Below are positions 20,901 through 51,000 of a stretch of DNA of 64,000 bases, piece by piece (the first letter of the stretch is position 1; each line of letters opens with the position of its first letter). The notes under the pieces were generated by a model. That model saw only the letters and a program-made list of their open reading frames with translations, searched no databases and was not told where the DNA came from. Origin of the DNA: Morinoia aosen (lineage: Eukaryota; Arthropoda; Malacostraca; Amphipoda; Talitridae); assembly GCA_030386875.1 (NCBI GenBank), contig CM059580.1:434001-498000 (forward strand). The letters run 5' to 3'. The position numbers were made by a program, and so were the translations under genes.

Positions 20901-21062
20901 ATTATTATTATTATTGTAATTGTTTAACCACCGTTACCACTAACAAGTGATCCGCACAGTGAGTCGCAGTAACATATTACATTTCAAGCACAATTCAAAC
21001 TAAAATTATAAATGGCATCACTATCAATTTGCCTGTCTTTATAATTTAGAACTCATGGGAAA

Positions 21063-24000: not shown

Positions 24001-24773
24001 ACATTCTTTCCATTCAGCTGGTCGATATCCTCACTTGACAACTGGGTCAGTCTGCTAAACAGAGTCCAATTTCCTTTGTTTAGGTCATACCGTTCATATC
24101 TGGCTTGCATATTTTGAGGATGGACAGGATCGAGATGGATAGGGTAGTGATCGCTGTCATAAAGGTTTGCATTAACATGGTATTTAAAATCCATATAGCA
24201 GTCAGGAGAGCATAGTGTTAAATCGATGACAGAGAGGGATCCCGTCTGCCTGTGAAAATGTGTAGGTTGTCCGTCGTTCATGATACAGATGTTATTTTCT
24301 CTTACTATTCTTTCCATGAGTTGTCCTTTATCATTTACCACGTTGTCATTCCATAGTTGGTTTCGAGCATTGAAGTCCCCCATTATAATATACGGGGTAG
24401 GCAGCTGGGAAATCAAATTTTCAACTTCTTGGTGTTGTATATTGATGTGCGGCAAGTAGACCGAGCATATGGTGTATGTCCGGTGCAGATTAATACGTAG
24501 TGCTACTGCTTGCAACGTGGTACGCAAGTCAATCCGGTGATGCGGTATTGTCCTGTGGATCAATATTGCAGCGCCCCGCTCGTGATCATCAGCGCGGGTC
24601 ACACCAGAGGTATAGAGAGAGTACTGAGTGGGTGGTGTCACCGTTCTGTCCCGGAGCATGGTCTCTTGAAGGCAGACACATGCAGGGTGGTATAGATTGA
24701 GGAATTGTTTAAGTTCACAGAATTTGGTTCGGTACGATTCTAAATTCCATTGAATAAATGAATCAAAATTCAT
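21063..24773 (-). pseudogene. I-like LINE ORF2 (EN-RT-RNase H), copy A, three +1 insertions
   Basis: The same protein as ORF2 of copy B, which is intact at 1235 codons. It starts at ATG 24773 (MNFDSFIQWNLES) and has only three amino-acid differences in the first 660 codons. Extra bases relative to copy B fall in three homopolymer runs: GGG at 22771-22773 (just before the catalytic YVDD, giving an early stop), GGG at 21321-21323, and C7 instead of C6 at 21112-21118. The first separates endonuclease and RT fingers/palm from the YVDD, thumb and RNase H. All three changes are insertions in homopolymers, so read errors are as likely as real mutations. If the insertions are real, the copy makes no active reverse transcriptase. 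Confidence 0.93.
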
Positions 24774-24803
24774 TTACAAATAGAGGTACTGGTTTGTTTT
24801 CCT

Positions 24804-26612: not shown

Positions 26613-26984
26613 CGCGTACTGGGGAGACCCCGGTTGGCTCCCCCTAGCACAATCGCTAGGGGGCACCTTGTAACTGCTTACAAGCTCCTCACATGATATT
26701 GGTTTAATAATCTACATAAAAGAACAAAATAATACAAAACCCCGATGTAGGGGGGGCCGCCTGCGTTGGTTCTACCTACAACAAGCTATCAAGAATAATT
26801 AAATGAGGTCAGCCTGTTATTTTACATTAATTATCTAATGTATATCAAAGACAAGTAGGTATACTAATAGTACCACCACGTAAAGGTGCAGGTCGACTAG
26901 ATACACTCTAGTAAGAATGTACCTTCTATCAAATCCTTGTCAATATTCAGCAATGTTCCCTTCACACATATAAACAAATACACT

Positions 26985-27024
26985 TGGTACCAGTAAAATT
27001 GGTAAAGGGAACAGTGAAAATTCC
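26985..27024 (-). promoter_or_regulatory. 5'-terminal module of copy A
   Basis: On the minus strand the element begins GGAATTTTCACTGTTCCC and continues TTTACCAATTTTACTGG. The same layout (TTTT, TTCCCTTTACCA, TTTTACTGG) starts copies B, C and D. It lies at the transcription start expected for an internal pol II promoter. Its role as a promoter is inference. Confidence 0.6.
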
Positions 27025-32748: not shown

Positions 32749-32761
32749 CACTGTTGCACTA
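32749..32761. repeat. target-site duplication of copy B, left
   Basis: CACTGTTGCACTA, identical to 38889-38901. The last A may belong to the tail. The duplicated sequence is coding sequence of element C ORF1, which dates B after C. Confidence 0.92.
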
Positions 32762-32927
32762 TTATTATTATATTATTATTGTAATTGTTTAACCACCGTT
32801 ACCACTAACAAGTGATCCGCACAGTGAGTCGCAGTAACATATTACATTTCAAGCACAATTCAAACTAAAATTATAAATGGCATCACTATCAATTTGCCTG
32901 TCTTTATAATTTAGAACTCATGGGAAA

Positions 32928-35900
32928 TTAGATTACATAGAATAAGTCAGCTTCTTGGAGAAACCTATAGAGGCCTCCCCCCAATTCAACCGGGCCCGAG
33001 TCTCCCAGCAACTCGCTCATCACCACCTCGCTCTGACCGAAGTAACGGCGTCTTAGTGCAGCATATCGTTGGCACTCGGTGAGAATGTGTTTTACACTCA
33101 CAGTAACTTGACACTGGAGACATTGCGGCGGCGCAGTCCCGTTCATCAAATACTCATGCGTTAGAAGTGTATGTCCAATACGGAGGCGACACAGCTTTAT
33201 CTCCCACTCCCGGTTGGTCCAGCAGCTTGTTCGGAGGGGTTGCGTCGTGTCCTTAATTTCTCGGAGTTTGTTCTCAGTCACTTCACGCCAGTCATGATTC
33301 CAATTTTGATGGACGAGTCTTTTAAAGGCACATGCGAAGTCTCCGCGAGGCATTCCTTTGCGTATCTGGCGCTCTCGTTGGGTGGCAGACTGTGCAGCCT
33401 CGTCAGCTCTCTCGTTTCCCGCCACACCCACATGGCTAGGCACCCAGCACAATGTATAATGTTTTCCGATCTCAGTCATCAGCGTTAGGATCTGCGTTAT
33501 TATAGGATGGGTGTTGCAGGGTTTTATCATACTTTGTAGGGCGCTACGACAGTCTGAGACGATTGTGATCATACTCGTATCCACCGCTCGAGATGCGCGC
33601 ACCGCGGACAGTATTGCACACAACTCAGCTGTGAACACCGAAGCCACTGAAGGGAGTTTGACCGCTAGTATGTTTAACCCATGGACGGCTGCATATGCTG
33701 TGCCATGTTCAGTTTTAGATCCATCGGTAAAGAAGACAGCTGTTTCAGAGTGACGTACGAAGTGATCGAGGAATAGGGCTCTGGATGGGGCTGCACCAAG
33801 CAGTCGTTTATGCAGGTCAGCCAGTTCACTGCACACAGCTATCGGGGGAGAGACCCACGGCGCAATGGGGGAGACGCTTTCCGGAGCCACGCACTCCAGT
33901 GAGATGTCATAGTTTCTTAGTATCGTTTGCAGGCGAAGATAAAATGGTTTGGGGCTTCTTTCGTTTGCATGCAGGCGTCCCGAAGCACAGCGAATTTTTG
34001 AGAGAATTTGTTGAGCAGGATCAGAGAGCAGTCTAAGGTAATAGTTTACGATCTTTATTTCCAGGTAATACGCTAAAGGTTTTATTCCGGTTTCTGCATG
34101 GAGAGATAAGATAGGTGAACTTTTGAACGCACCAGTAGCTACCCGAAGGGCAGAATTCTGCACAGTGTGCAATGATTTCATTAGGGTAGCACATGCAGAG
34201 CTATAAGCTTCTGAGCCATAGTCCAATTTTGGCTTTAGTAGACCCATATAAAGACGGAGCAAGGTTTGCCGATCTGCTCCATACTGGGTATGGGATATGA
34301 CTTTCATTAAGTTTATGTGTTGTGAACATGATCGTTTGAGGGATTGGATGTGAGGCCGCCAGGTAAGGCTCGAGTCGAAGATTAATCCCAGATACTTGAA
34401 TTGTTCAACATGTGGTAGCACTGCATTGTTTAGATGAAGTTCGGGGGAGGCTTTCAGACAGCCACGAGTACGGCAGAAATGCATAGTCACTGTTTTGGAT
34501 GGGGAGAATTGAAATCCAGTGGTTGCTGTCCATTGCGTGAGGTGGTTAATAGCGATCTGCAATTGTCGTTTTAGGAACTCCGGTTTTTTGCCCGACACAT
34601 AGATGACGAAGTCATCTACGTATAGAAGCCGATGGACACTCTGCGGAATTTCATCAGCGATATCATTTATGGCAACAAGGAAACACACGCAGCTGAGGAT
34701 ACTTCCCTGAGGGACTCCTCCTCGGAGGCTCTTGGTTGACGAGTGGACATTCTGGAGACGGACTCTAATTTTTCTATTATTCATGAAATTGTGTAGGAAA
34801 GCAAGAAGGTGCCCATGTATACCATATTTCTGAAGTTTCAGTAGGATTCCGTATGTCCATGCGGTGTCATATGCTTTCTGTAGGTCAAAGAAGACGGCAA
34901 CAAGGTGATTCTTTGAAGTAATACTCGAAGCGATGTGTGATGACAGCGTCACCAAATGGTCGGTGGTACTTCGGTTCTTCCGGAAGCCAGATTGGATATT
35001 TACTATTTTCCTAGTCGATTCCAAAAACCAGACTAGTCTCCTGTTAACAATTTTTTCAAGCAGTTTGCTTAAGCATGAGGTGAGAGCAATTGGACGGTAA
35101 CTATTTGGAGATGTCGGATCTTTACCAGCTTTTAAAATTGCTATTATTATTGTTAGTGACCAAGTTGCTGGGAATTCCTGCTGGGACCATATTTTGTTGA
35201 AGAGAGAGAGTACTGCAGGGAGGAAGGTTTCGTGGGCTTTTTTAATCATGCTGTATGAGATGTCATCATGGCCGGGAGCGCTATCGCTGGCTGTGCGTAA
35301 GGCAGTTTTAAGTTCTGACATGGTTAAGGGGCTATTGTATGCTTCATTGTTTCCCCCCAACCGCAGAGGTCTTCCTTCCCACCTTTCCTTATATCGCGTG
35401 AAGGATGCGTCGACGGTTGCGTTATCACTCACTGATGAGAAGTGTTCCGCCAGCATCTCCGCAGCTTCCAGCAATGTTTCAGTCAGGTTGTTCGTACGGG
35501 GATCTCTCAACTTTGGGGTAGGAGTCAATTTAAATTTTCCGGACAGCTTTTGGACTTTTTTCCATACTAAGTTTAAGCTGGTTTTGATATTTATACTACT
35601 GATGAAAGCTTTCCAGGATGATTGTTTACTTGTCAGGAAGGTCTTCCGGCAGATTGCCTTTGCTCTATTGTATCGGATCCTGTTATACGCATTGTGACAT
35701 CTTTCCAAGGCTCTTTCAGCTCGCGTACGCTCGCGCTTTGCCATTTCGCACTCAGAGTTCCACCACGGTACCGGAGGTCGCGGTAGAGAGCCGCTCTTGC
35801 GAGGTATGGATGTATCAGCAGCTTGCTGTAAGATGTTGGTCAAAGTAGCTGTGTGATCCTCAACATTCTTTCCATTCAGCTGGTCGATATCCTCACTTGA

Positions 35901-36635
35901 CAACTGGGTCAGTCTGCTAAACAGAGTCCAATTTCCTTTGTTTAGGTCATACCGTTCATATCTGGCTTGCATATTTTGAGGATGGACAGGATCGAGATGG
36001 ATAGGGTAGTGATCGCTGTCATAAAGGTTTGCATTAACATGGTATTTAAAATCCATATAGCAGTCAGGAGAGCATAGTGTTAAATCGATGACAGAGAGGG
36101 ATCCCGTCTGCCTGTGAAAATGTGTAGGTTGTCCGTCGTTCATGATACAGATGTTATTTTCTCTTACTATTCTTTCCATGAGTTGTCCTTTATCATTTAC
36201 CACGTTGTCATTCCATAGTTGGTTTCGAGCATTGAAGTCCCCCATTATAATATACGGGGTAGGCAGCTGGGAAATCAAATTTTCAACTTCTTGGTGTTGT
36301 ATATTGATGTGCGGCAAGTAGACCGAGCATATGGTGTATGTCCGGTGCAGATTAATACGTAGTGCTACTGCTTGCAACGTGGTACGCAAGTCAATCCGGT
36401 GATGCGGTATTGTCCTGTGGATCAATATTGCAGCGCCCCGCTCGTGATCATCAGCGCGGGTCACACCAGAGGTATAGAGAGAGTACTGAGTGGGTGGTGT
36501 CACCGTTCTGTCCCGGAGCATGGTCTCTTGAAGGCAGACACATGCAGGGTGGTATAGATTGAGGAGTTGTTTAAGTTCACAGAATTTGGTTCGGTACGAT
36601 TCTAAATTCCATTGAATAAATGAATCAAAATTCAT
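32928..36635 (-). CDS. I-like LINE ORF2: endonuclease, reverse transcriptase, RNase H (copy B)
   Basis: Intact, 1235 codons from ATG 36635. The APE-type endonuclease (about residues 1-212) nicks target DNA: WNLES, CLQETM, GDFNAR with Asp133, VIDLT and SDHYPI with Asp208. The reverse transcriptase (about 480-760) copies the RNA at the nick: SYRPIALTSCLSKLLEKIV, QSGFRKNRSTTDHL, FFDLQKAYDTAW, GVPQGSIL and YVDD at 672-675. RNase H (about 965-1095) degrades the RNA strand, with the acidic residues in TDGSK (Asp971), TAELCAI, SDCRSAL and NERADEAA. The C-terminus has a CX2CX8HX4C-like cluster (CLQCQVTVSVKHILTEC). RNase H and the TAA-type tail support the I clade over Jockey. ORF1 ends 30 bp upstream, so translation probably reinitiates. 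Confidence 0.96.
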   Translation of the reverse strand: MNFDSFIQWNLESYRTKFCELKQLLNLYHPACVCLQETMLRDRTVTPPTQYSLYTSGVTRADDHERGAAILIHRTIPHHRIDLRTTLQAVALRINLHRTYTICSVYLPHINIQHQEVENLISQLPTPYIIMGDFNARNQLWNDNVVNDKGQLMERIVRENNICIMNDGQPTHFHRQTGSLSVIDLTLCSPDCYMDFKYHVNANLYDSDHYPIHLDPVHPQNMQARYERYDLNKGNWTLFSRLTQLSSEDIDQLNGKNVEDHTATLTNILQQAADTSIPRKSGSLPRPPVPWWNSECEMAKRERTRAERALERCHNAYNRIRYNRAKAICRKTFLTSKQSSWKAFISSINIKTSLNLVWKKVQKLSGKFKLTPTPKLRDPRTNNLTETLLEAAEMLAEHFSSVSDNATVDASFTRYKERWEGRPLRLGGNNEAYNSPLTMSELKTALRTASDSAPGHDDISYSMIKKAHETFLPAVLSLFNKIWSQQEFPATWSLTIIIAILKAGKDPTSPNSYRPIALTSCLSKLLEKIVNRRLVWFLESTRKIVNIQSGFRKNRSTTDHLVTLSSHIASSITSKNHLVAVFFDLQKAYDTAWTYGILLKLQKYGIHGHLLAFLHNFMNNRKIRVRLQNVHSSTKSLRGGVPQGSILSCVCFLVAINDIADEIPQSVHRLLYVDDFVIYVSGKKPEFLKRQLQIAINHLTQWTATTGFQFSPSKTVTMHFCRTRGCLKASPELHLNNAVLPHVEQFKYLGLIFDSSLTWRPHIQSLKRSCSQHINLMKVISHTQYGADRQTLLRLYMGLLKPKLDYGSEAYSSACATLMKSLHTVQNSALRVATGAFKSSPILSLHAETGIKPLAYYLEIKIVNYYLRLLSDPAQQILSKIRCASGRLHANERSPKPFYLRLQTILRNYDISLECVAPESVSPIAPWVSPPIAVCSELADLHKRLLGAAPSRALFLDHFVRHSETAVFFTDGSKTEHGTAYAAVHGLNILAVKLPSVASVFTAELCAILSAVRASRAVDTSMITIVSDCRSALQSMIKPCNTHPIITQILTLMTEIGKHYTLCWVPSHVGVAGNERADEAAQSATQRERQIRKGMPRGDFACAFKRLVHQNWNHDWREVTENKLREIKDTTQPLRTSCWTNREWEIKLCRLRIGHTLLTHEYLMNGTAPPQCLQCQVTVSVKHILTECQRYAALRRRYFGQSEVVMSELLGDSGPVELGGGLYRFLQEADLFYVI

Positions 36636-36665
36636 TTACAAATAGAGGTACTGGTTGGTTTTCCT

Positions 36666-38474
36666 TCAGGTTCCGATCACTTGAATTTTTTGGCTTTCTG
36701 CTGATCTCGATGCTCGGTCTCGGCTTCTTGATGGTGGCGATGTCGTCCGCTGTTTCTTGGTTGGTGCAGTAGGCTTCGGTTTGTAGGTCATTGAGTTTCT
36801 ACTGGAGTTGCCATCGTCATCGTCGCTTCCATAGCCTTGGAGGTTTGTAAGGCTGGAAGTTGCCTCCCTCCGCTTGAAAGAGTATTTGGTGAGAGAAGCC
36901 GGCGTAGGTTTTTGGCCTTTCACTGTTTTAGGGGGTTCTCCGTTTGGCTCCAGTTGTTTTCGTTGTCGGTTGTAGACTGTAGGCACCTTGGGCTTAGAGA
37001 GTGTGGCGTTATTTATTTCTTTTTGCGTCGTCCTTTTCGGTGAAATGATGGGTTGGGAGACGGCAACTGTTGGAGTTCCTGAGCTTGTACTAATTGAATC
37101 GGTGGCCTTCGATTTTACATCAGCTGTAGCTGGAGCGGATTTAGCGTTGCGAGGAGTAGAATCAGTGCACGCAGTGATTTGGTTAGGAGGTTGTTCATTG
37201 TTGTTTTTTGCCTGAACTGGCCTTATTTCTGGTTTTGCAGGTTCTTGTTCAGTGTGAGTCGGCTGTTGTGGCATATATTCCTGAGGAGCAGCAGAGTTGG
37301 GTTCTTCCGCAGGGGTACTTGTATCTCCCCTAACTACCGCGCTATACATCCGCTCATGCTCCGGATGTTTCTCCAAAACGAGGTCCATGGCTTCTGAGCG
37401 CGAGGTCTTCAATCTCTGTTGAGTGGCTAAAATTTCACTTTCAATTTGATATTTTGGGCATTGTTTATCATTTGAGTAATGAGGCTGCCCGCAATGGTAG
37501 CATCGGACGGCATTAGGACAGGAGCTTTTTTGGTGCCCTTCCTGCCCACATCGGGAGCACGTGTCTGCTTCTCTGCGGCAGTATTTTGCAACGTGGCTAT
37601 AGCGTTGGCATTTAAAGCATTGTTGCGGTCTTTCTTTATATTCTTCTACAAGCTCACTGTGCCAAGATGACAATTTCACAGCTCTTGGCACCGTGTGCTT
37701 TTGGAATGTCAGGATGTATGTGTCGGTAACAACTTTCTCGCCATCTCTCCTCAGCTCTATTCGCCGCAGGTCAATCACTCCCTGGTCAGCTAGGTGGTCC
37801 TTCAGTTCTTCCATAGAACACTGTCCGAAAGTCTTGCTTCGGACTACACCACGAACAGTGTTGAGTGATCGGTGGGGCTCTATTACTACTCCCTTTCCGC
37901 CAATGCGGTCCAGTTTCATCAGCTTATCTGATTGGGTTGTACTATTTGTCTCAATGAGGAGACTGTTATACCCAGATTTTACGATTTTCTTTGGAGTACC
38001 AATTGTCTTAGTAATGTCGCGTTCTGCCAGCAACACGTTCAAATCTCTGGAGATATTGACCCCAGGGAATCGTACAGTATAATATTTGATATAGTATGGT
38101 ATGGAGTTCTCGAACATTCCTTCCAGTCTCAGCATCTGACGCGCTCGCCGGTCATCTCGTCGTCTCCTCTTCACCTGTCGTCGGTTCATTGTTTTCCAGA
38201 TGCTCTGTTCATCTCCGGTCGCAGCTTCCTCATCATTGTTAGGCTCTCGGGTTGTCTCAGCTTCCACTGTTTTGGCCCTCGAAGCGTCTTCGCTACATAA
38301 GTTTCTCTCATTCGTCTGATCTTTTCCATTATTTAATTCAGTCTCGGCACTCGCTCCTTGTGTGGGGTCCACACTTAGAGGAGGCAAATCGTTAGTCTGC
38401 ATTAGAGCAGAACTAGCAGTATCCATTTGAGTGTCCAGGTCGTCAGCGGCAGGTAGGGATTGATGGGTTTCCAT
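36666..38474 (-). CDS. I-like LINE ORF1, gag-like CCHC protein (copy B)
   Basis: 602 codons from the first ATG at 38474; the frame is open 18 codons further up without another ATG. The protein is identical to that of copy A, so selection or very recent duplication has kept it. Three zinc knuckles lie at about residues 283-345, and a basic, Ser-rich C-terminus follows (SPPSRSRDRASRSAES). Its job is to bind the element RNA and help nuclear delivery and reverse transcription, as known for I-factor-like ORF1 proteins. Confidence 0.94.
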   Translation of the reverse strand: METHQSLPAADDLDTQMDTASSALMQTNDLPPLSVDPTQGASAETELNNGKDQTNERNLCSEDASRAKTVEAETTREPNNDEEAATGDEQSIWKTMNRRQVKRRRRDDRRARQMLRLEGMFENSIPYYIKYYTVRFPGVNISRDLNVLLAERDITKTIGTPKKIVKSGYNSLLIETNSTTQSDKLMKLDRIGGKGVVIEPHRSLNTVRGVVRSKTFGQCSMEELKDHLADQGVIDLRRIELRRDGEKVVTDTYILTFQKHTVPRAVKLSSWHSELVEEYKERPQQCFKCQRYSHVAKYCRREADTCSRCGQEGHQKSSCPNAVRCYHCGQPHYSNDKQCPKYQIESEILATQQRLKTSRSEAMDLVLEKHPEHERMYSAVVRGDTSTPAEEPNSAAPQEYMPQQPTHTEQEPAKPEIRPVQAKNNNEQPPNQITACTDSTPRNAKSAPATADVKSKATDSISTSSGTPTVAVSQPIISPKRTTQKEINNATLSKPKVPTVYNRQRKQLEPNGEPPKTVKGQKPTPASLTKYSFKRREATSSLTNLQGYGSDDDDGNSSRNSMTYKPKPTAPTKKQRTTSPPSRSRDRASRSAESQKIQVIGT

Positions 38475-38849
38475 CGCGTACTGGGGAGACCCCGGTTGGC
38501 TCCCCCTAGCACAATCGCTAGGGGGCACCTTGTAACTGCTTACAAGCTCCTCAGATGATATTGGTTTAATAATCTACATAAAAGAACAAAATAATACAAA
38601 ACCCCGATGTAGGGGGGGCCGCCTGCGTTGGTTCTACCTACAACAAGCTATCAAGAATAATTAAATGAGGTCAGCCTGTTATTTTACATTAATTATCTAA
38701 TGTATATCAAAGACAAGTAGGTATACTAATAGTACCACCACGTAAAGGTGCAGGTCGACTAGATACACTCTAGTAAGAATGTACCTTCTATCAAATCCTT
38801 GTCAATATTCAGCAATGTTCCCTTCACACATATAAACAAATACACTTGG

Positions 38850-38888
38850 TACCAGTAAACGTGGTAAAGGGAACACGTAAAATTTTTC
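38850..38888 (-). promoter_or_regulatory. 5'-terminal module of copy B
   Basis: On the minus strand it reads GAAAAATTTTACGTG, then TTCCCTTTACCACGTTTACTGG. A 33-base stretch is identical to the 5' end of the unrelated element D (43746-43778). ACGTG and CACGT on either side of TTCCCTTTAC could pair as a five-base stem. Confidence 0.7.
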
Positions 38889-38901
38889 CACTGTTGCACT
38901 A
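38889..38901. repeat. target-site duplication of copy B, right
   Basis: CACTGTTGCACTA, identical to 32749-32761. Confidence 0.92.
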
Positions 38902-39304
38902 AGTTGATCAAACTGGGACTGAAGCTTTTTGATGGAATCAATAGTTTTTTTAAGCGTTGAAAATAAGGAACTCAACTGATGGGTGAAAATCTCGTCGAAC
39001 GAGCGCAGGTCATCCATAGTAGGAGATGAGGGGAGTTCATCATTCAACACACTGCACGGGCTAGCCCCACTCGCAGTAGCACTGCCGGTTTTTTGGTGCC
39101 TCTCTTTGGACGCCCACGAGATCGCTTCCCAGCAGTTGGTTGACCAGGGCGAGTCTTCCCCGGCTGAGAATTCCGGAGACGAGAAGTCAGCTGAGACATG
39201 AGGCTCTCCATCCGACACACGCCCTCATCGAGACCAAGGTCATTGTCACTCCAGTCAGAATTCAGGGAGTCTCGCTCGAGCCGATGCGCCGCGGAGTGCG
39301 CCAT
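38889..39304 (-). pseudogene. element C ORF1, 5' part (interrupted by copy B)
   Basis: Starts at ATG 39304 (MAHSAAHRLERDS). It includes a basic motif SRGRPKRGTKKPA, like an AT-hook, where the frame shifts near a run of T at 39089-39094. It then continues as SATASGASPCSVLNDELPSS and a likely coiled coil (FTHQLSSLFSTLKKTIDSIK, then LQSQFDQLSATV) up to the copy B insertion. The reading frame resumes at 32748. A coiled coil near the N-terminus is typical of CR1-group ORF1 proteins that multimerise on RNA. One frameshift plus the insertion make it non-functional. Confidence 0.75.
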
Positions 39305-39447
39305 TAAACTGGCACCACAGACGCCACCAAGGTCCCATCGGCAGTAATTACACTCATATTGGCAAATACGTTAGAGACGTGCAGGCTCGCAAACAAATTC
39401 CTGTAAAGCCTGGGCTAATCTGAAACACACTTTACCAGCCACGTCTC

Positions 39448-39484
39448 CCGCCAGTAAAACGTGGTAAAGGAAGTAGTGAAAATT
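39448..39484 (-). promoter_or_regulatory. 5'-terminal module of element C
   Basis: On the minus strand it reads TTTTCACTACTTCCTTTACC, then ACGTTTTACTGGCGG. It shares the order TTTTCACT, TTCCTTTACCACG, TTTTACTGG with the 5' ends of copies A, B and D. It marks the likely start of element C. Confidence 0.6.
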
Positions 39485-39496
39485 AAAAGATTATAA

Positions 39497-39688
39497 AAAA
39501 GGAATAGTAGAAGAACTTGTTTATTATCATCTCAAAGGCAAAAATTAATAAGGTATGCAAAGAAAGATTTGGATGATCATATTATGTTACTAAATAATAA
39601 AGCGTTAGGAATCGAGAAAAGTATTAAAAGATTACATCCAACGTATGATGTAATCTTTTTGTTGTATATTAAAATATGCATCGTATAA
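39497..39688 (+). pseudogene. AT-rich coding relic, part 5 (unrecognised)
   Basis: A 63-codon plus-strand frame between stops, with a protein-like end (KKDLDDHIMLLNNKALGIEK, then RLHPTYDVIFLLYIKICIV). It lies directly right of element C and may continue the blocks at 27187-27708 from before C inserted. It contains a perfect 13-bp hairpin (39626-39659). Family not recognised. Confidence 0.35.
39626..39659. other. perfect 13-bp hairpin
   Basis: AAAAGATTACATC (39626-39638), an 8-nt loop CAACGTAT, and GATGTAATCTTTT (39647-39659). It lies within the coding relic. Function unknown. Confidence 0.7.
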
Positions 39689-40019
39689 TGTGATACTGGT
39701 TTTATGAGTACGAGTTCCGGAGCGGAGGTTTGCGCGTCTTGCCGGATGCCTTATCGCGTTCAGGTCAGATGTCTTTATGGGACCTCCGCCGGAAGCTGTG
39801 CCTTGGGGGCGCATCGCATAGGTATGCACCGGAAGAGCATTGTTTAACTTCCGAGCGCTATAGCTTATAAGCAGAGTCGGTGTATCGACGAGTCAGTACA
39901 AGAATAGGAACCTAGCTAAGAGTTTCCTTTTCCTACTCCTGGAGTTAAGGCTTCAGATACGGTAGTTACAGCTACCGATACTTTAGTTTGCAGCTACAGT
40001 TACTAAACCTCGTATCGTG
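39689..40019 (+). promoter_or_regulatory. GC-richer segment with inverted repeats, TATA box and initiator
   Basis: TTCCGGAGCGGAGGT (39715-39729) faces ACCTCCGCCGGAA (39782-39794). CCGGAAG and CTTCCG near 39830-39853 form a second small inverted pair. TTATAA at 39865-39870 stands 29 bp before the A of TCAGT (39893-39897), the spacing of an arthropod TATA/initiator core promoter. It leads to the open frame at 40020. The composition contrasts with the AT-rich frames on both sides. Confidence 0.45.
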
Positions 40020-40241
40020 ATGAGCAACCCCGATATGGAAAACTCTTTCACTATGAAATTTACTATGAAATTAGAAAGTATTATAATTTCATATACAGAA
40101 TTAGTTAACCATAGTATGGATTGTAAAAAAAATATACTTAAAGATTCTAATACACAAGGAGACAAAGAATTAAACAGTATTTATATTCTTTTGATAAATA
40201 AAATAGAATTAAATTTTCAGATAATATTAGAACATATATAA
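40020..40241 (+). CDS. 73-aa AT-rich open frame, unrecognised
   Basis: Starts at ATG 40020 (MSNPDMENSFTMKFTMKLES) and ends at TAA 40239-40241, a few bases before the satellite. It is rich in Ser, Asn, Ile, Lys and Glu, with no signal peptide or membrane segment. A TATA box and TCAGT initiator lie 125-155 bp upstream. I do not recognise the family. The 3' end may have been cut by the satellite, so this could be a fragment of a larger gene. An endogenous viral or other AT-rich foreign origin is a guess. Confidence 0.4.
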   Translation: MSNPDMENSFTMKFTMKLESIIISYTELVNHSMDCKKNILKDSNTQGDKELNSIYILLINKIELNFQIILEHI

Positions 40242-40258
40242 ACATAAATTATCATTAT

Positions 40259-43200
40259 TCAATTCATAATTGGGGCATCTATCGCCTAATACAAGGCTCC
40301 CACCTATGAGCTCCTGCTTGTATCACTAACCACCACCCTGCGCACTCCCATGAAGGGTGGAGAGTTGTGATGCTTGAGCGCAGACGGGTATGGCAGCGAA
40401 AATTTTTTCTACACGACACTTGCGTCCTCCTGCACATCATATAAGTTGAAATTTCAATAGTGTGCTGCACAATTCATAATTGGTTCATCAATCGCCTAAT
40501 GCAAAGCTCCCACCTATGCACCCCTGCACAGCTTCCTAATCAACCCCTTACCCCTCCCCCTCCCCCCCCCCCCCCCCTGCGCACTCCCAAGAAGCCCACC
40601 CACGCGTAAATCGAAGATTTTCTACCAACACTTACCTTTCTCGAACACATGGACGAGCTGTTGCAGGGGATTCTGGGAGGATTCCAAAACTCGAAGTTCA
40701 TGATCTTGCCCTCCTCACGCCCGGCCCAGTCTCTGAGGGCATAGGTTCTGAATGAGCATGGGGTGCTGTTATCGGTACGACAGTTTGTCACGTGAGAGCA
40801 ATGAATTGAACATTGATTCGCACGGAATACAACTAGCCTGGTACAAAATTTGTTATATCTCATCCTGCCTACGTGGGATATAGATCTGATAAATTTTTAT
40901 GTCGCATACTTTTTGTGGAGAATGAAATTACTGTGTTAACTTGATGAGGGAAAATAGAAAACTCACGTAATTATCAGGTGTGTCTTCTGCTGAAGTGTGG
41001 AGAGTTGCGATGCTGGAGCGCAGACGGGTGTGACAGCGGAAATTTTTTCTGCACGGCACTTGCGTCCTTCTGCACAAAATATAAGTTAAAATTTCAATGG
41101 TTTGCTACACAATTCATAATGGGGCATAAATCGCCTAATACAAGGCTCCTACCTATGCACCCCCCCCCCCCCCCCTCATATATCCCTAACCAACCCAATT
41201 CTTCCCTGCGCACTCTCATGCAGCCCACTCAGGCGTAAATCGAAGATTTTCTACCAACACTCACATTTTTCGAAGACATGGACGAGCTGTTGCTGGGGAT
41301 TCGGGAAGATTTCCAAAACACGAAGTTCTCGATCTTGCCTTTCTCACGCCCGGCCACGTCTCTGAGGGCATAGTTTCTGAATGAGCATGGGGGTGCTGCT
41401 ATCGGTACTACAGTTTGTCACACAAGAGATGTCAATTTAATATTGATTCGTATGGAATACACCTTGCCAGGTACAAAAATTGTTATATCTCATCCTGCCT
41501 ACGTGGGACATAGATCTGATCAATTATTTTGCCGTGTACTTTTTGTAGGGAATAAAATTGCTGTGTTAACCTAAAGAGGGAAAATACAAAACTCACGTAA
41601 TTATCAGGTGTGTCTGCTGCTGAAGTGTGGAGAGTTGCGATGCTGGAGCGCAGATGGGTGTGGGAGCGCCATTTTTTTCTGCATAGAATATGCGTACACC
41701 TGCACAAAATGTAGGTTGAATTATCAATAGTGTGCTGCACAATTCATAATTGGGGCGTCTATCGCCTAATACAAGGCTTTCACCTATGAGCCCCTGCTTG
41801 TATCCCTAACCACCACTCTGCGCACTCCCATGAAGTGTGGAGAGTTGCGATGCTTGAGCGCAGTCGGGTGTGGCAGCGGAAATTTTTTCTACACGGCACT
41901 TGCGTCCTCCTGAACATAATATAAGTTGAAATTTCAATAGTGTGCTGCACAATTCGTAATTGGTTCATCAATCGCCTAATGCAAGGCTCCCACTTATGCA
42001 CCCCTGCACAACTTCCTAATCAACCCCTCCCCCAACCACCCTTCCCCCCCCTGCGCACTCCCAAGCAGCCCACCCACGCACAAATTGAAGATTTTCCACC
42101 AACACTTACCTTTCTCGAACACATGGACGAGCTGTTGCTGGGGATTCTGGGAGGATTCCAAAACTCGAAGTTCATGATCTTGCCCTCCTCACGCCCGGCC
42201 AAGTCTCTGAGGGCATAGGTTCTGAATGAGCATGGGGTGCTGTTATCGGTAAGACAGTTTGTGACGTGAGAGCAATGAATTGAACATTGATTCCCACGGA
42301 ATACAACAAGCCTGGTCCAAAATTTGTTATATCTCATCCTGCCTACGAGGGATATAGAGCTGATAAATTTTTTGTCGCATAATTTTTGTGGAGAATGAAA
42401 TTACTGTGTTAACTTGATGAGGGAAAATATAAAACTCACGTAATTATCGGGTGTGTCTTCTGCTGAAGTGTGGAGAGTTGCGATGCTGGAGCGCAGACGG
42501 GTGTGACAGCGGAAATTTTTTCTGCACGGCACTTGCGTCTTTCTTCACAAAATATAAGTTAAAATTTCAATGGTTTGCTACACAATTCATAATGAGGCAT
42601 AAATCGCCTAATACAAGGCTCCCACCTATGCAGCCCCCCCCCCCCCCCCTCATATATCCCTAACCAACCCAATTCTTTCCTGCGCACTCTCATGCAGCCC
42701 ACTCAGGCGTAAATCGAAGATTTTCTACCAAAACTCACATTTTTCGAGGACATGGACGAGCTGTTGCTGGGGATTCGGGAAGATTTCCAAAACACGAAGT
42801 TCTCGATCTTGCCTTTCTCACGCCCGGCCACGTCTCTGAGGGCATAGTTTCTGAATGAGCATGGGGGTGCTGCTACCGGTACTACAGTTTGTCACACAAG
42901 AGATGTCAATTTAATATTGATTCCTATGGAATACACCTTGCCAGGTACAAAAATTGTTAGATCTCATCCTGCCTACGTGGGACATAGATCTGATCAGTTA
43001 TTTTGCCGTGTACTTTTTGTAGGGAATAAAATTGCTGTGTTAACCTAAAGAGGGAAAATACAAAACTCACGTAATTATCAGGTGTGTCTGCTGCTGAAGT
43101 GTGGAGAGTTGCGATGCTGGAGCGCAGATGGGTGTGGGAGCGCGATTTTTTTCTGTATAGAATATGCGCACACCTGCACAAAATGTAGGTTGAATTATCA

Positions 43201-43744
43201 ATAGTGTGCTGCACAATTCATAATTGGGGCGTTTATCGCCTAGTACAATGCTTTCACCTATGAGCCCCTGCTTGTATCCCTAACCACCACTCTGCGCACT
43301 CCCATGAAGTGTGGAGAGTTGCGATGCTTGAGCGCAGACGGGTGTGGCAGCGGAAACTTTTTCTACACGGCACTTGCGTCCTCCTGCACATAATATAAGT
43401 TGAAATTTCAATAGTGTGCTGCACAATTCATAATTGGTTCATCAATCGCCTAATGCAAGGCTCCCACCTATGCACCCCTGCACAACTTCCTAATCAACCC
43501 CTCCCCCAACCACCCTTCCCCCCCTGCGCACTCCCAAGCAGCCCACCCACGCATCAATCGAAGATTCTCTCCAAAACACTTACCTTTCTCGAACACATGG
43601 ACGAGCTGTTGCAGGGGATTCTGGGAGGATTCCAAAACTCGAAGTTCATGATCTTGCCCTCCTCACGCCCGGCCAAGTCTCTGAGGGCATAGGTTCTGAA
43701 TGAGCATGGGGTGCTGTTATCGGTACGACAGTTTGTCACGTGAG
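40259..43744. repeat. 1.475-kb satellite array, left part
   Basis: About 2.4 tandem units with a period near 1475 bp. Each unit is built from three related subunits: a short one of about 215 bp and two of about 630 bp. All three share the ends TCGCCTAATRCAAGGCT and GTGTGCTGCACAATTCATAA. The short subunit looks like a longer one lacking about 415 bp between CTGCGCACTCCCA and GAAGTGTGGAGAG. Each unit also has two poly-C tracts of variable length. Open frames of 70-125 codons recur in every unit only because the units are alike; I do not call them genes. Interrupted at 43744 by element D. Confidence 0.95.
43740..43744. repeat. target-site duplication of element D, left
   Basis: GTGAG, repeated at 48095-48099. 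Intact satellite units read CACGTGAGAGCAATG here, so the five bases are duplicated around D. Confidence 0.7.
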
Positions 43745-43780
43745 GAAATTTTACGTGTTCCCTTTACCACGTTTACTGAT
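43745..43780 (+). promoter_or_regulatory. 5'-terminal module of element D
   Basis: Begins GAAATTTTACGTGTTCCC and continues TTTACCACGTTTACTG, identical over 33 bases to the 5' end of copy B. TCAGTG at 43780-43785 is an initiator-like word. It lies at the very start of the element. Confidence 0.7.
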
Positions 43781-43863
43781 CAGTGTTTTCGGAACAGTGT
43801 TTGCAGATCAGATCAGTGTTTTCAAACTCTATCCGTACGGAAGCACGGAATCATCTCTGGAAG

Positions 43864-44892
43864 ATGAATCGCCTTTGCCGAGCTGCGCCAAGTGGTACAT
43901 TGTGTGGAGTCTGCGATGGAGAGGTTGTGCAGTTCTCGCTTAAGTGCGAGAACTGCTCCTGTTACACCCACCTGAAATGTTCGGGACTGCCGTCGTCCCA
44001 CCTTGTTCGACTGGAGTTGACCAGAGCCTCGTATAGGTGCGAGTGCTGTGTAGCAAGGGAGAGTGGCGAGAGGTACCAGGAGGTTCTCGACTCGATTGAG
44101 GAGGAGCTCGGAAGTTCCGGAGACAAGGGTCTGGAGAGCCCTGAAAGAGAGCCAAAAACCCTTAATGCACCACCGCTGTCGGGTGGGGTCGCAGCGCATG
44201 GGAGGCAGTCGTTGAGCATGGACAGCTTGAATGACACGGCCGGGTGCCCAGAGGGTGCAAAAACGGGGGAAGCGAGTTTAGAAAAAGCTGAAAAAGCTGT
44301 GTGCCGACATTACCTGAGGGGACAGTGTAAACATGGTTTGAGAGGAAGCTCCTGTAAGTTTGCGCATCCTAAGCTTTGCCGTAAGTTTGCGAAGCTGGGA
44401 GGTAAGCGAGCGGGAGGTTGCAAAAAAGGCCGAGAATGCAAATTTCTCCATCCTGCTGTGTGTTGGAGGGTGGAACGGGGGGAGCAGTGCCCGTACAAAA
44501 ACTGCAAATTCTATCACCCCAGGGGACTGATATCGGCTGTGTCGGGGGAAAAACAGTCGAGCATTAGTGACCAGGAGCCGAGAATGCTCCTCAGGAGCAA
44601 ACACAGCGAACCGAGGGGCGCACCACCACAGAGAGGGCTGTCTTATGCTGATATGGTGAGCAAGCGTGCGCCGGTTGTAGCCCAGAAGGTCACGCAACCT
44701 GCTGGCTCGTATGGCCAGGATGCAGGCCTACTAGGGTCTTTTCCGGGACAGACTGAAAGTTTGTCTTTTTTAGAGCTGCGCAGACAGGTCCAGGAAATCC
44801 AGAACCTGCTGACCTTGCTCCTGAAGGAGAGGGACAACGAACGCCCCCCTATTCAAGGGCTACGTCCGTGCAGCTGCCGAAGCCATTTGTAG
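43864..44892 (+). CDS. CR1-like LINE ORF1 with PHD-like and CCCH zinc fingers
   Basis: 342 codons from the first ATG at 43864 (MNRLCRAAPSG); the frame is open further upstream but without ATG. Residues about 13-60 form a PHD-like finger (CGVCDGE...CENCSCYTHLKCSGL...CECC). A Ser/Glu/Pro-rich linker follows. Residues about 145-225 hold three CCCH units: CRHYLRGQCKHG...CKFAH, CRKF...CKKGRECKFLH and CWRVERGEQCPYKNCKFYH. CCCH fingers usually bind RNA and PHD fingers usually bind chromatin tails, so the protein may carry element RNA to chromatin; that is inference. A C-terminal LELRRQVQEIQNLLTLLLKE segment looks like a coiled coil for multimerisation. It overlaps the ORF2 frame by about 25 bp. Intact. 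Confidence 0.88.
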   Translation: MNRLCRAAPSGTLCGVCDGEVVQFSLKCENCSCYTHLKCSGLPSSHLVRLELTRASYRCECCVARESGERYQEVLDSIEEELGSSGDKGLESPEREPKTLNAPPLSGGVAAHGRQSLSMDSLNDTAGCPEGAKTGEASLEKAEKAVCRHYLRGQCKHGLRGSSCKFAHPKLCRKFAKLGGKRAGGCKKGRECKFLHPAVCWRVERGEQCPYKNCKFYHPRGLISAVSGEKQSSISDQEPRMLLRSKHSEPRGAPPQRGLSYADMVSKRAPVVAQKVTQPAGSYGQDAGLLGSFPGQTESLSFLELRRQVQEIQNLLTLLLKERDNERPPIQGLRPCSCRSHL

Positions 44893-47888
44893 AGAGTAAT
44901 GTTTGCCCCACAATTATTTCCTGCAACATCGAAGGCTTGTGCCCACGGGCTCAGAAACATAAGGTTAAAAGAAAGGTTATTAGGTTATTAGAAGAAAGAG
45001 CCTTGTTGAAGCATGCGGTTGTTGTGGCAGCGGTTGAGTCACACCTACGTGAGGAGATCCTTGATGCCGAGGTGAGCATGAGGGGCTACTGCTTGTACAG
45101 AGCTGACAGGGCTTCCGACAGAAAAAAAGGAGGCATTGCAGTGTTCGTCCGTGAGGATCTGGCTGCAGCCGCAGTGGTGCTCAAGAGTGGTTCAAATGGA
45201 TGGGTGGAGCACATCGTCCTGTGGTTTGAAACGATGAGACTTATTACTGTTGTTATGTACAGACCCCCCGCGTGTCCTTCTGAGATGTTTGTTCCGGTTC
45301 TCCTTGATATCGCAGAGGGGATTGAGGACCTGGGAACACCTCTGCCGACTTTGATTATACTTGGTGATTTTAACTTTCCCAGAATAAACTGGTCCTTAAA
45401 CAGTATCTACGGTGGCTCTCGAGAGGACCGATTACAGGCCAAATCTCTTCTCGAGTTCATGGACAAGTTCGCGCTTGAACAATCGGTGAACTGCCCAACT
45501 AGGCTGGATAGCTTATTAGACCTAGTCTGTACCAACCATGGTGAACTGGTGAGGGACTTGGTTGTGGAAGACACAACATTGTCGGACCACAGACTGATAA
45601 TAGTTAAAGCTGATATTGGATGGGCCAACCAACAGTCCAACGCTGAGCTGAACTATGGGAGTATCTTGGGTTCACTTAACTTCATGAGCTCTCGAACCGA
45701 CTGGTGCAGTATAAGGGAGGAGCTTGCAAGAATCGACTGGGCTTCGAGATGCGAGGACATGCTTCCCGTGAACATGTATGAAGATCTCTGTGGTGTCCTG
45801 ACAGAGGTCTGTTCAAAATACGCCCCGCCAAAGACAGCAGTTCGTCAGGCGTCAATTCCAAGAGATCGTAAGATCCTAATGCGGAAGAAAGCCCGTATAC
45901 GTAGGCAGCTGCTCGGGGCTGTCAGCTCGGCCATTAGAATGAAATTACTGAGCAGGGCAGAGCTGATCGAGCACCAGCTGATACAGTCGCATGAGCTTGA
46001 AACTGCGACTAGGGAGAGGCGGGCGATTGAAGCAATCCGCAACAACCTGAAGTATTTCTATGGGTACGCACGGAGTAAGTCAAAGACCAAGTCCCAAATT
46101 GGCCCTTTCCATGCTGGCGACGAGCTCGTTGGCGACTCTTTGGCCAAAGCTGAGGTGCTGAGGAAGCAGTACGAGTCAGTCTTCAGTAGGCCGAGAAACT
46201 CGGACACTCTAGGTCTCCTGCAAGGACTACTCGAAGAAGACAGGCCCTCCCTTCTGGACGATGTTCGGTTCGGCGAGAACGAGCTGGTGACATGCATAAG
46301 GGAGCTGCCGTCCACATCCGCAGCGGGTCCGGACGGGATTCCTTCGATCCTCTTGAAAAACTGTTGCGAGGAATTGAAGGCTCCTATACATGCACTGTGG
46401 AGATCATCAATGGATAAAGGATGTGTGCCTGCTCCTCTCAAATTGGGAGTAATTATTCGGGTTCACAAGGGGGGCGTGAAGCATTCCCCAGCTAATTACC
46501 GTCCTATCGCCCTAACATCCCATGTAATTAAAATTTTTGAGAAGATCGTAGTTAAACGACTAGTTGCGTATCTCGAGAGCAATGACCTACTGAACGACAA
46601 TCAGCACGGTTTCAGACGGGGTCGGTCGTGCCTCTCACAATTGTTGGAGCATCAGCGGCAGGTTACGGAGGCGCTTGGCTCTGGACTCGCTGTGGACGTG
46701 GTGTATCTGGACTTCGCTAAGGCCTTCGATAAAGTAGATTATGGCGTGCTGCTTAGGAAGCTCCGTCTTTTTGGAATCAGTGGTAGGCTCCTTGAATGGA
46801 TTTATAGCTTCCTAACAAACAGGAAACAAGTTGTCTCAGTGGACGGGAGCCGCTCGACGGAGTCGGTGGTGGTGAGTGGTGTGCCTCAGGGATCTGTTTT
46901 GGGTCCACTCCTTTTCCTGATCCACATTTCGGACATCGATGTCAATCTGTTGCACTCACGGGCCTCATCCTTCGCTGACGACACCAGAGTCTTGAAAACT
47001 ATTGCTACGGTGGAGGACTGTGAGGCTCTACAGAGTGACCTCCAGAAGATTTGCGAGTGGGCAACGCGAAACAACATGACCATCAATGAAAATAAATTTG
47101 AGTTGGTGCGGTACGGTTTGCACCCTGACCCCTCCTATGCGTACAGCCTCACTGGAGGTTCAGCGATCGACCGCAAGTCTTCGGTCAGGGATCTGGGGGT
47201 CGTAATCTCGGATGACGGTGGCTTCGGAGAGCACATTAACCAGGTGGTGCTTAGGTGCAGACGCCAGATCGGATGGATCCTGCGAACCTTTAAGACAAGG
47301 GAAGCCCCACTAATGCTGAAATTGTTCAAATCGTTAGTCCTCCCATTGGCAGAGTACTGTTGTCAGCTCTGGAGTCCGAGCACTGTTGGCGAAGTACAGA
47401 AGTTGGAGGGTGTACAGAGGACCTTCACTGCAAGGATCGACGGAATGCAGTCGTTTGACTACTAGAAACGGCTATCACACCTGTCCCTGTTTTCATTACA
47501 GCGTCGCCGTGAAAGGTACCTCATCATATATACCGGGAAGGTTCTGAATGGCTTGGCTCCGAACTTCAGGGACCAGGCGATGCGACTAACAGCCCAGCGG
47601 CACATTCGGCGAGGAAAAACTTGTAACATCCCAGCCTTTACCAGCAGGGCGCTGGCGAGCATCAGAACGAGGCATGAAAACTCGTTCTCTGTTATGGGTC
47701 CTCGCCTGTTCAACTGTCTTCCGACTAGTACCAGGGAGTTTGAGGGGACACTGGAGTCTTTCAAAGGGAGACTCGATGGATTTTTGAGGACGATCCCGGA
47801 CAAGCCTCCCTTGCCCCATTACTACCAGCCTGCTGAGGGTAATAGTTTCCTGCAGCAGCTGGCATATATGAGAGCGGCTGCCCCCTAA
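44868..47888 (+). pseudogene. CR1-like LINE ORF2 (EN-RT) with one in-frame TAG
   Basis: The ORF2 frame overlaps the end of ORF1 and has no clear ATG start, so translation may depend on reinitiation or frameshifting. The endonuclease part has SCNIEGLCPR, AAVESHL, MYRPPA, LGDFNFPRINW (Asp near residue 167), LLDLVCTN and LSDHRLI. The RT part has AAGPDGIPSILLKN, NYRPIALTSHVIKIFEKIV, HGFRRGRSCLSQLL, YLDFAKAFDKVD (Asp near 615), GVPQGSVLGPLLF and FADD at about 702-705. A TAG at 47463-47465 follows the codons for SFDY. The same frame then continues to 47888 with the usual C-terminal LIIYTGKVLNGLAPN. A single G-to-A change of a Trp codon would explain it. All catalytic blocks precede the stop, so only the last 140 codons are lost. 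Confidence 0.92.
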
Positions 47889-48070
47889 CCTTGCCCCGGC
47901 AAGGGAAGGAGGGCTGACGCCGCTCTTTCTGGAGGTGTCGTGGCCTGCCTCGGCTGTGGTGGAGCTGCTGGCTCCCTTTGCTGAGGACCTGGGGCTCCGT
48001 CGCTGCGGGGAGGTTGGCGGCGTCGTGAGGCGGCGACTCATCGTGGCCTGGAGCTGTGCTCAAAACTATT

Positions 48071-48094
48071 TCTCAGGAATCTCAGGAATCTCAG
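48071..48094 (+). repeat. 9-bp repeated tail of element D
   Basis: TCTCAGGAA occurs twice, followed by TCTCAG. It ends exactly at the GTGAG target duplication. CR1-like elements end in such short tandem repeats. Confidence 0.85.
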
Positions 48095-51000
48095 GTGAGA
48101 GCAATGAAATGAACATTGATTCGCACGGAATAAAACTAGCCTGGTACAAAAATTGTTATATCTCATCCTGCCTACGAGGGATATAGAGCTGATAAATTTT
48201 TTGTCGCATAATTTTTGTGGAGAATGAAATTACTGTGTTAACTTGATGAGGAAAAATATAAAACTCACGTAATTATCAGGTGTGTTTTCTGCTGAAGTGT
48301 GGAGAGTTGCGATGCTGGAGCGCCGACGGGTGTGACAGCGGAAATTTTTTCTGCACGGCACTTGCGTCCTTCTGCACAATATATAAGTTGAAATTTCAAT
48401 GGTGTGCTACACAATTCATAATTGGGGCATAAATCGCCTAATACAAGGCTCCCACCTATGCACCCCCCCCCCCCCCTCATATATCCCTATCCGACCCCAT
48501 TCTTCCCTGCGCACTCTCATGCAGCCCACCCACGCGTAAATCGAAGATTTTCTACCAACACTCACATTTTTCGAGGACATGGACGAGCTGTTGCTGGGGA
48601 TTAGGGAAGATTTCCATAACACGAAGTTCTCAATCTTGCCTTTCTCACGCCCGGCCACGTCTCTGAGGGCATAGTTTCTGAATGAGTATGGGGTGCTGCT
48701 ATCGGTACTACAGGTTGTCACACTAGAGATGTCAATTTAATATTGATTCGTATGGAATACACCTTGCCAGTTACAAAAATTGTTATATCTCATCCTGCCT
48801 ACGTGGGACATAGATCTGATCAATTATTTTGCCGTGTACTTTTTGTAGGGAATAAAATTGCTGTGTTAACCTAAAGAGGGAAAATATAAAACTCACGTAA
48901 TTATCAGGTGTGTCTGCTGCTGAAGTGTGGAGAGTTGCGATGCTGGAGCGCAGATGGGTGTGGGAGCGCCATTTTTTTCTGCATAGAATATGCGTACACC
49001 TGCACAAAATGTAGGTTGAATTATCAATAGTGTGCTGCACAATTCATAATTGGGGCGTCTATCGCCTAATACAAGGCTTTCACCTATGAGCCCCTGCTTG
49101 TATCCCTAACCACCACTCTGCGCACTCCCATGAAGTGTGGAGAGTTGCGATGCTTGGGCGCAGACGGGTGTGGCAGCGGAAATTTTTTCTACACGGCACT
49201 TGCGTCCTCCTGCACATAATATAAGTTGAAATTTCAATAGTGTGCTGCACAATTCATAACTGGTTCATCAATCGCCTAATGCAAGGCTCCCACCTATGCA
49301 CCCCTGCACAACTTCCTAATCAACCCCTCCCCCAACCACCCTTCCCCCCCCCTGCGCACTCCCAAGCAGCCCACCCACGCATAAATCGAAGATTTTCCAC
49401 CAACACTTACCTTTCTCGAACACATGGACGAGCTGTTGCAGGGGATTCTGGGAGGATTCCAAAACTCGAAGTTCATGATCTTGCCCTCCTCACGCCCGGC
49501 CAAGTCTCTGAGGGCATAGGTTCTGAATGAGCATGGGGTGCTGTTATCGGTACGACAGTTTGTCACGTGGGAGCAATGAATTGAACATTGATTCGCTCGG
49601 AATAAAACTAGCCTTGTACAAAATTTGTTATATCTCATCCTGCCTACGAGGGATATAGAGCTGATTAATTTTTTGTCGCATAATTTTTGTGGAGAATGAA
49701 ATTACTGTGTTAACTTGATGAGGGAAAATATAAAACTCACGTAATTATCAGGTGTGTTTTCTGCTGAAGTGTGGAGAGTTGCGATGCTGGAGCGCAGACG
49801 GGTGTGACAGCGGAAATTTTTTCTGCACGGCACTTGCGTCCTTCTGCACAATATATAAGTTGAAATTTCAATGGTGTGCTACACAATTCATAATTGGGGC
49901 ATAAATCGCCTAATAAGAGGCTCCCACCTATGCACCCCCCCCCCCCCCCCCTCATATATCCCTAACCAACCCCATTCTTCCCTGCGCACTCTCATGCAGC
50001 CCACCCACGCGTAAATCGAAGATTTTCCACCAACACTCACATTTTTCGAGGACATGGACGAGCTGTTGCTGGGGATTCGGGAAGATTTCCATAACACGAA
50101 GTTCTCGATCTTGCCTTTCTCACGCCCGGCCACGTCTCTGAGGGCATCGTTTCTGAATGAGCATGGGGGTGCTGCTATCGGTACTACAGTTTGTCACACA
50201 AGAGATGTCAATTTAATATTGATTCGTATGGAATACACCTTGCCAGGTACAAAAATTGTTATATCTCATCCTGCCTACGTGGGACATAGATCTGATCAAT
50301 TATTTTGCCGTGTACTTTTTGTAGGGAATAAAATTGCTGTGTTAACCTAAAGAGGGAAAATATAAAACTCAGGTAATTATCAGGTGTGTCTGCTGCTGAA
50401 GTGTGGAGAGTTGCGATGCTGGAGCGCAGATGGGTGTGGGAGCGGAATTTTTTTCTAAATAGAATATGCGTCCACCTGCACAAAATGTAGGTTGAATTAT
50501 CAATAGTGTGCTGCACAATTCATAATTGGGGCGTCTATCGCCTGATACAAGGCTTTCACTTATGAGCCCCTGCTTGTATCCCTAACCACCACTCTGCGCA
50601 CTCCCATGAAGTGTGGAGAGTTGCGATGCTTGAGCGCAGACAGGTGAGGCAGCGGAAATTTTTTCTACACGGCACTTGCGTCCTCCTGCACATAATATAA
50701 GTTGAAATTTCAATAGTGTGCTGCACAATTCATAATTGGTTCATCAATCGCCTAATGCAAGGCTCCCACCTATGCACCCTTGCACAACTTCCAAATCAAC
50801 CCCTCCCCCAACCACCCTTAGCCCCCCCCTGCGCACTCCCAAGCAGCCCACCCACGCATAAATCGAAGATTCTCTACCAACACTTACCTTTCTCGAACAC
50901 ATGGACGAGCTGTTGCAGGGGATTCTGGGAGGATTCCAAAACTCGAAGTTCATGATCTTGCCCTCCTCACGTCCGGCCAAGTCTCTGAGGGCATAGGTTC

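Follow-up and report, generated by a model that had tools for sequence, protein, structure and literature searches.

Why should four long interspersed nuclear elements (LINEs) with different proteins begin with the same short sequence? The question is raised by a stretch of 64,000 nucleotides from the amphipod Morinoia aosen (GenBank assembly GCA_030386875.1, contig CM059580.1, positions 434,001 to 498,000 of the forward strand), hereafter the window, in which the LINE copies A and B and the LINE elements C and D carry a common module at their 5′ ends. This shared module is almost certainly the exon, 33–35 nt long, of a host spliced-leader (SL) RNA, to judge from its match with SL RNA genes, which the LINE transcripts would have received before being copied back into DNA. 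The whole analysis is based on DNA sequence only, from the window and from the rest of the 1.99 Gb genome, where individual loci are designated by L numbers. The features concerned, with their open reading frames (ORFs) and their endonuclease (EN) and reverse transcriptase (RT) domains, are the following:

26991..27024, (−) strand: SL exon at the 5′ end of copy A, GG followed by AATTTTCACTG...CCAATTTTACTG, identical to the exon of SL RNA gene L092 plus one extra G
20901..27024, (−) strand: LINE copy A, I-like, with ORF1 at 24804–26666, ORF2 at 22749–24773 plus 21290–22804, and an (AAT)n tail
38853..38888, (−) strand: SL exon at the 5′ end of copy B, ACGTG type, identical to a C11 SL gene exon but with two extra A near the 5′ end
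32761..38888, (−) strand: LINE copy B with ORF1 at 36666–38528 and ORF2 at 32928–36635, sitting in element C with the target-site duplication AGTGCAACAGTG
39452..39484, (−) strand: diverged SL exon at the 5′ end of element C, its core with 2 mismatches
38889..39484, (−) strand: 5′ part of element C, split by copy B and resuming at 32760 downwards
32134–32751, 30648–32069 and 29356–30672, (−) strand: ORF1 and the EN/RT ORFs of element C, beyond the insertion of copy B
43744..43778, (+) strand: SL exon at the 5′ end of element D, ACGTG type with a GG start, identical to the exon of C11 SL gene L096 plus one extra G
43779..43830, (+) strand: start of the D body, a remnant of the internal repeat of ~33 bp that holds AG acceptors, with the junction AG/ATCAGTG
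43744..48095, (+) strand: LINE element D, with ORF1 at 43783–44892 (CCCH fingers) and ORF2 at 44868–47465, located in a satellite; 3′ end approximate

The module occurs at all four LINE sites, in agreement with the original prediction made from this DNA. Its core, the 14-mer TTCCCTTTACCACG, is exact in B (38860–38873, minus strand) and D (43758–43771, plus strand) and carries 2 mismatches in A (26998–27011) and C (39460–39473). With up to 2 mismatches allowed, the window contains six matches versus 0.30 expected, a number reached in none of 100 shuffles; the remaining two are located at 852–865 (core only) and 20120–20133 (2 mismatches). B and D share a run of 33 identical nucleotides in their leaders, as had been noticed, and the announced difference between the proteins is borne out by a pairwise identity of 26.6–30.5% in the RT region among B, C and D, all of which possess EN and RT ORFs. 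Copy B also displays the expected RNase H domain, besides EN and RT, and a zinc knuckle in ORF1; with respect to the PHD and CCCH fingers attributed to element D, the CCCH fingers were recovered but the protein gave no PHD match in Pfam. Copies A and B, which share 99.74% identity over 6,130 bp, represent a single family (A/B). ORF2 of copy A is broken, since it is split into two overlapping frames (22749–24773 and 21290–22804); that of copy B is open over 1,235 codons.

In A, B and D the module occupies the extreme 5′ end, next to a target-site duplication. In copies A and B the target-site duplications (AACTAATTCTCTT and AGTGCAACAGTG, respectively) touch the leader, so that the 5′ boundaries are real element ends, and copies A, B and L018 all combine duplications of 12–13 bp and (AAT)n tails with a leader that directly touches the duplication. 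For element D, comparison with uninterrupted satellite units, which serve as the empty site, yields a duplication of 3–4 bp and a leader beginning with GGAAATTTT. No target-site duplication was found for element C, and duplications were not clearly resolved at the remaining loci tried.

The identity of the module emerged from a full-text literature search with CCCTTTACCACG, which led to another amphipod, Parhyale hawaiensis. The passage of PMC5111886 devoted to amphipod SLs, which cites Douris et al. 2009, gives four SL sequences trimmed from the transcriptome, the first being GAATTTTCACTGTTCCCTTTACCACGTTTTACTG. This SL is identical (34/34 nt) to the exon of gene L094 in M. aosen and to the leader of the A/B-family copies L044 and L048, and two of the other three Parhyale SLs of that passage also contain CCCTTTACCA...TTTACTG. 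Within the passage the SL is treated as a sequence to be trimmed, and genomic LINE copies are not mentioned.

The SL RNA is a host RNA, a kind of match that the original prediction had proposed to look for, and its genes occur in numbers. The exon followed by GTRWY matched 493 places (control 0); among the 100 matches listed, 41 belong to a cluster on C7 (69.776–69.891 Mb) and 11 to a tandem array on C9 (from 52.17 Mb). Genes L091–L094 share the exon, a GTATCGTATC donor region, a GATATTTTG Sm-like site and a 3′ stem-loop, downstream of which the sequence is poorly conserved. Not all of the 493 matches are genes, because one of them, L095, corresponds to a LINE-like end without any SL gene. Similarly, the ACGTG-type leader of B and D followed by GTATCG matched 243 places (control 0), and 99 of the 100 matches listed are grouped in one array (C11:1.79–2.02 Mb) with steps mostly of ~1.59 and ~1.87 kb, in which two genes were read; the 143 other matches are outside those listed. 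All six fetched genes exhibit an ACTG/GTATCG donor, the search patterns themselves requiring GT after ACTG, and a putative Sm-like site GATATTTTG that is conserved by eye in 6/6. No 5S rRNA match was found in the 740 bp beside one of the C11 genes. With other donors the exon gave 0 (GTRAG), 6 (GTRWR) and 27 (GTY) matches; among the 33 places of the last two patterns, 16 were read, as 15 regions, and discarded as SL genes, none showing the layout of GTATCG plus Sm-like site and most being LINE or repeat copies by eye. In L062 and L063 the exon is followed by GTATAATG.

The exact 14-mer is found 1,494 times in the genome versus 27 times for the reversed pattern; many of these occurrences are not LINE ends, and at most 243 fit the C11-type SL gene pattern. 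A sample consisting of the first 22 places listed, in position order, was read as 20 regions. By eye, a full leader ending in TTTACTG occurs at 14 of these sites, a near-form leader at five (L014, L015, L016, L024, L025) and the core only at three (L010, L012, L013), a second row of L013 being a repeat of the L012 site. Seven sites, all included in the 14 with a full leader, head LINEs: L009 and L021 are 97% and 99% identical at the DNA level to D and A/B, respectively, and L011, L017, L018, L019 and L028 are recognized as LINEs by EN and/or RT domains (both in L017, L019 and L028, RT only in L018 and EN only in L011, in the ORF given). The seven other full leaders head non-LINE sequences (two in L020, two in L022, and L023, L026 and L027). 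The original prediction expected the module mainly at LINE 5′ ends and an identical start in the other copies of each family; in fact only 7/22 sampled exact sites head recognizable LINEs, and other family copies do begin with a different leader, two results which fit an SL.

The family of copies A and B reveals how such a leader behaves. A 339 bp query taken from A provided 695 candidates, of which 40 were scored and 30 fetched, amounting with B to 31 distinct copies (A itself being L029). A single joint between leader and body is used in all 30 fetched copies. Eleven of the 31 bodies match the majority sequence at every position over 1,800 bp; these 11 identical bodies carry four full leader types together with the leader of L045, which differs at its 5′ edge only; another copy, L033, diverges after ~690 bp. 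Since at least four leaders occur on bodies identical over 1,800 bp, the leader is renewed independently of the LINE body and is not inherited with it. Moreover, 18/31 leaders are identical to the exon of one of the six fetched SL genes, and in 17 of these 18 an extra G stands directly before the exon, at a position occupied by C or T in the six genes (binomial p ~8e-10, taking the base as G by chance). We infer that this 5′ G probably represents the copied cap. L035 and L042 carry a rare leader, TTTAGCACG, which recurs in two of the C11-array genes listed. By eye, none of the 31 leaders is a hybrid with an ACGTG-type 5′ half and a CCAATTTTACTG 3′ half. Body variants cross the leader types (L041 with L050; L032 and L050 with L058), which suggests more than one A/B source.

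Element D provides the complementary information on the acceptor side. Among 60 candidates, 40 were scored and 14 fetched, which together with D and L009 gave 16 readable 5′ ends; L009 and L075 have a common flank and represent one insertion, duplicated. A leader is present on 13 of these 16 ends (that of L074 being seen in L090). The body of the family starts with a tandem repeat of ~33 bp, the units of which therefore show the unspliced sequence that precedes the junction. Depending on the copy, the leader is joined before TGTTTGCAG or close forms (8 copies), before ATCAGATCAG (3 copies) or before ATCAGTG (D itself), and 12 of the 13 junctions, read from the repeat units of the family, follow AG. 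L074 was considered as an unspliced source and ruled out by the presence of a leader in its upstream sequence. Insertions of the D family often lie in TG-rich simple repeats (L068, L069, L072, L073, L076, L077), which may reflect a target preference.

According to the mechanism proposed, the exon of the host SL RNA would be joined to LINE transcripts by SL trans-splicing, the LINE reverse transcriptase would then copy the capped, SL-headed RNA right up to its 5′ terminus, and insertion of this cDNA would leave a genomic copy starting with the SL variant that its RNA had received. The LINE RNAs were most likely trans-spliced because the leaders vary on the same bodies, match SL exons and, in the D family, follow AG junctions. 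Trans-splicing followed by full-length reverse transcription is thus very probably the general mechanism, as far as sequence comparison allows, and we infer that splicing rather than template switching would be the joining step in all families. The original prediction was right in stating that the sharing is not due to common descent of the LINEs. The two explanations offered there fared differently. The module does come from an abundant host RNA, of which it is the 5′ end, but its capture by template switching, by which the enzyme would jump, at the end of reverse transcription of an SL-headed LINE RNA, to an SL RNA or an SL-bearing mRNA and swap the leader at a fixed joint, is rather unlikely. 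In its favour are the lack of an AG acceptor in the A/B copies with an intact body start, the local homology created at the joint by some I-like bodies that start with GTATC like the SL RNA intron, and the GGAAATTTCACTG leader, present in 9/31 copies without a fetched gene, which could be a hybrid. Trans-splicing is preferred to it because the leaders of unrelated bodies stop precisely at the SL donor and because the D junctions, distributed at several places inside the body, nearly all follow AG; the complete gene exons of 18/31 A/B leaders, with no half-hybrid among the 31 by eye, also speak against it. The other explanation, a promoter or initiator cassette that recombination would have carried from one LINE family to another, agrees with the 5′-end position common to many families and finds its nearest counterpart in the trypanosomatid Pr77, which the part of PMC8190864 concerned describes as an element-encoded promoter. 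It is rejected, with very little probability left to it, because copies whose bodies are identical bear different leaders; furthermore, the present module is a host SL exon that stops at its splice donor, and the sequence before the leader in A, B and L018 is target-site flank, not SL-gene upstream sequence. Still less credible is a capture of the leader once per family followed by inheritance as DNA, which the single joint of the 30 fetched A/B copies would favour but which the four or more leaders carried by undifferentiated bodies contradict.

Various observations weigh against trans-splicing, or against the SL genes on which it depends. Thirteen of the 31 A/B leaders have no fetched gene, namely the nine of the GGAAATTTCACTG type and those of L045, L050, L051 and B, the latter with its two extra A. 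Three of the 16 D-family ends are deprived of a full leader (none in L070 and L078, a fragment in L076), and the junction of L069, before TTTGCAG, does not follow AG. Several I-like bodies begin with GTATC or a similar motif, as the SL RNA intron does, a resemblance not required by splicing. The evidence for C11 genes is partly selected, the search pattern being built from the leaders plus GTATCG. A consensus fold of four genes comprises three stems, in which the donor pairs with the exon (UACCA/UGGUA) and one pair is changed on both sides; this predicted three-stem structure of the SL RNA is only suggestive, because single-gene folds are clearly better than shuffles in just 2/4 genes and because Rfam gave no match for L091–L095 up to E 5 and for L096 up to E 1, its content in amphipod SLs not having been checked.

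A further difficulty concerns the A/B family. The joint TGGTACC followed by 21 more body bases occurs 205 times, the same joint with A, C or G before GG never occurs, and with another base before G it occurs twice, in L064 and L065, both of which have decayed leaders. The unspliced A/B source was not found, because AG precedes the junction in 0/207 copies with an intact 26-nt body start and because a search for 28–58 extra bases between the leader ACCA and the body anchor gave 0 matches, anchor-mutated copies falling outside this search. Upstream of the body, no outron, acceptor or visible promoter is preserved in any of the A/B copies found. Three readings remain for this source: sources absent from the assembly, a non-AG acceptor located in the leader, or leader exchange by copy choice with the SL RNA. 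It is conceivable, though somewhat doubtful, that this young multi-copy family exists in the assembly only as trans-spliced cDNA, with fresh leaders still arising and the SL exon DNA serving as a start or exchange site. On the same tentative footing, that site could act as a promoter, as a non-AG acceptor or through copy choice with the SL RNA, and the LINE cycle would depend on the host SL machinery for the renewal of its 5′ end in each round.

Two other features of the body start were observed. I-like bodies begin with GT or GC (GTATC, GTACC, GTGCC, GCATC or GTTCC in L018, L095, A, B, L011, L017, L028 and L080), and the SL RNA intron begins with GTATC. In L011, L018, L019, A and B, nine nucleotides complementary to the SL core (AAGGGAACA or TAAAGGGAA) start 28–35 nt past the joint; 8–14 of 1000 shuffles per copy also match. 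This stretch is missing from L021 and L028, and L009, of the D family, contains a different 9-nt match. This complement could allow pairing with the SL RNA or the formation of a 5′ hairpin.

Comparable events have been reported in other organisms. For flatworms, the part of PMC12582326 concerned mentions 597 discarded LTR/LINE loci with an SL, for which an origin by reverse transcription of trans-spliced RNAs is suggested; for Schistosoma, the corresponding part of PMC5832876 describes six SL-containing elements, with a trans-spliced origin suggested and assembly chimeras also allowed. This origin is offered there as a possible explanation, and per-copy turnover, acceptor mapping, duplications and an extra G do not appear in the parts covered. 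Dinoflagellate retrogenes keep a relic DinoSL that is renewed upon re-expression, 5% of them with two or more relics (PMC12014239, in part). The likeness resides in the leader fossil at the 5′ end of a retrocopy; the difference is that host genes are concerned there and that the relic stays behind the new leader, whereas in the A/B and D copies the leaders replace each other, without any tandem relic by eye. In Hydra, an SL is present on ~30% of the Iso-Seq reads of transposons, according to the passage concerned of PMC12220107, which is evidence from RNA, while the present copies are genomic. The undescribed phenomenon announced by the original prediction is thus not wholly new, given the flatworm SL-bearing retrotransposons. 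What appears to be new is the crustacean case, the missing source, and the replacement of leaders on identical bodies, with leaders that can be matched to individual SL genes; the open-access literature searched yielded no account of leaders changing from copy to copy in LINEs.

The event is of a known kind, here in a form unusually revealing of the mechanism and with a puzzle that can be tested. Every insertion would stand as a fossil record of RNA trans-splicing, the clone of one trans-spliced RNA, and therefore the genome alone would show which SL genes were used, which acceptor sites were chosen, and that the leader was copied to its first base. The question raised is how a LINE keeps its promoter if trans-splicing strips the 5′ end of every RNA that is copied. 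In addition, LINE ends and SL genes can be mistaken for one another when repeats are annotated or SLs are sought in animals that use SLs.

Some other occurrences of the core deserve mention. At window positions 852–865 (minus strand), where it has one mismatch, and in L010, the core is part of another repeat, TTTTAGC[CT]TCCCTTTACCACGACAAAG, devoid of TTTACTG and not explained as a leader. In L020, L022, L059 and L088 the leaders form head-to-head (inverted) pairs, flanked on their outer sides by inverted repeat sequence in L020, L022 and L059. Penelope-like elements with hammerhead ribozymes were considered for these head-to-head repeats and dropped, since nine loci produced no Rfam match above threshold and since, for L059 and L088, scanning with permissive settings listed only below-threshold matches to other families. 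L012 and L013 (C1:2.81 Mb) contain the core-only match GGGGAATAAACTTCCCTTTACCACGGTTCAATAAATTG, duplicated 5.4 kb apart, which does not count as a leader under the rule applied to leader ends. Finally, the A/B copy L064 (C13:66.451 Mb) appears, by eye, within a coding sequence resembling an exon of a DIS3/RNB exonuclease.

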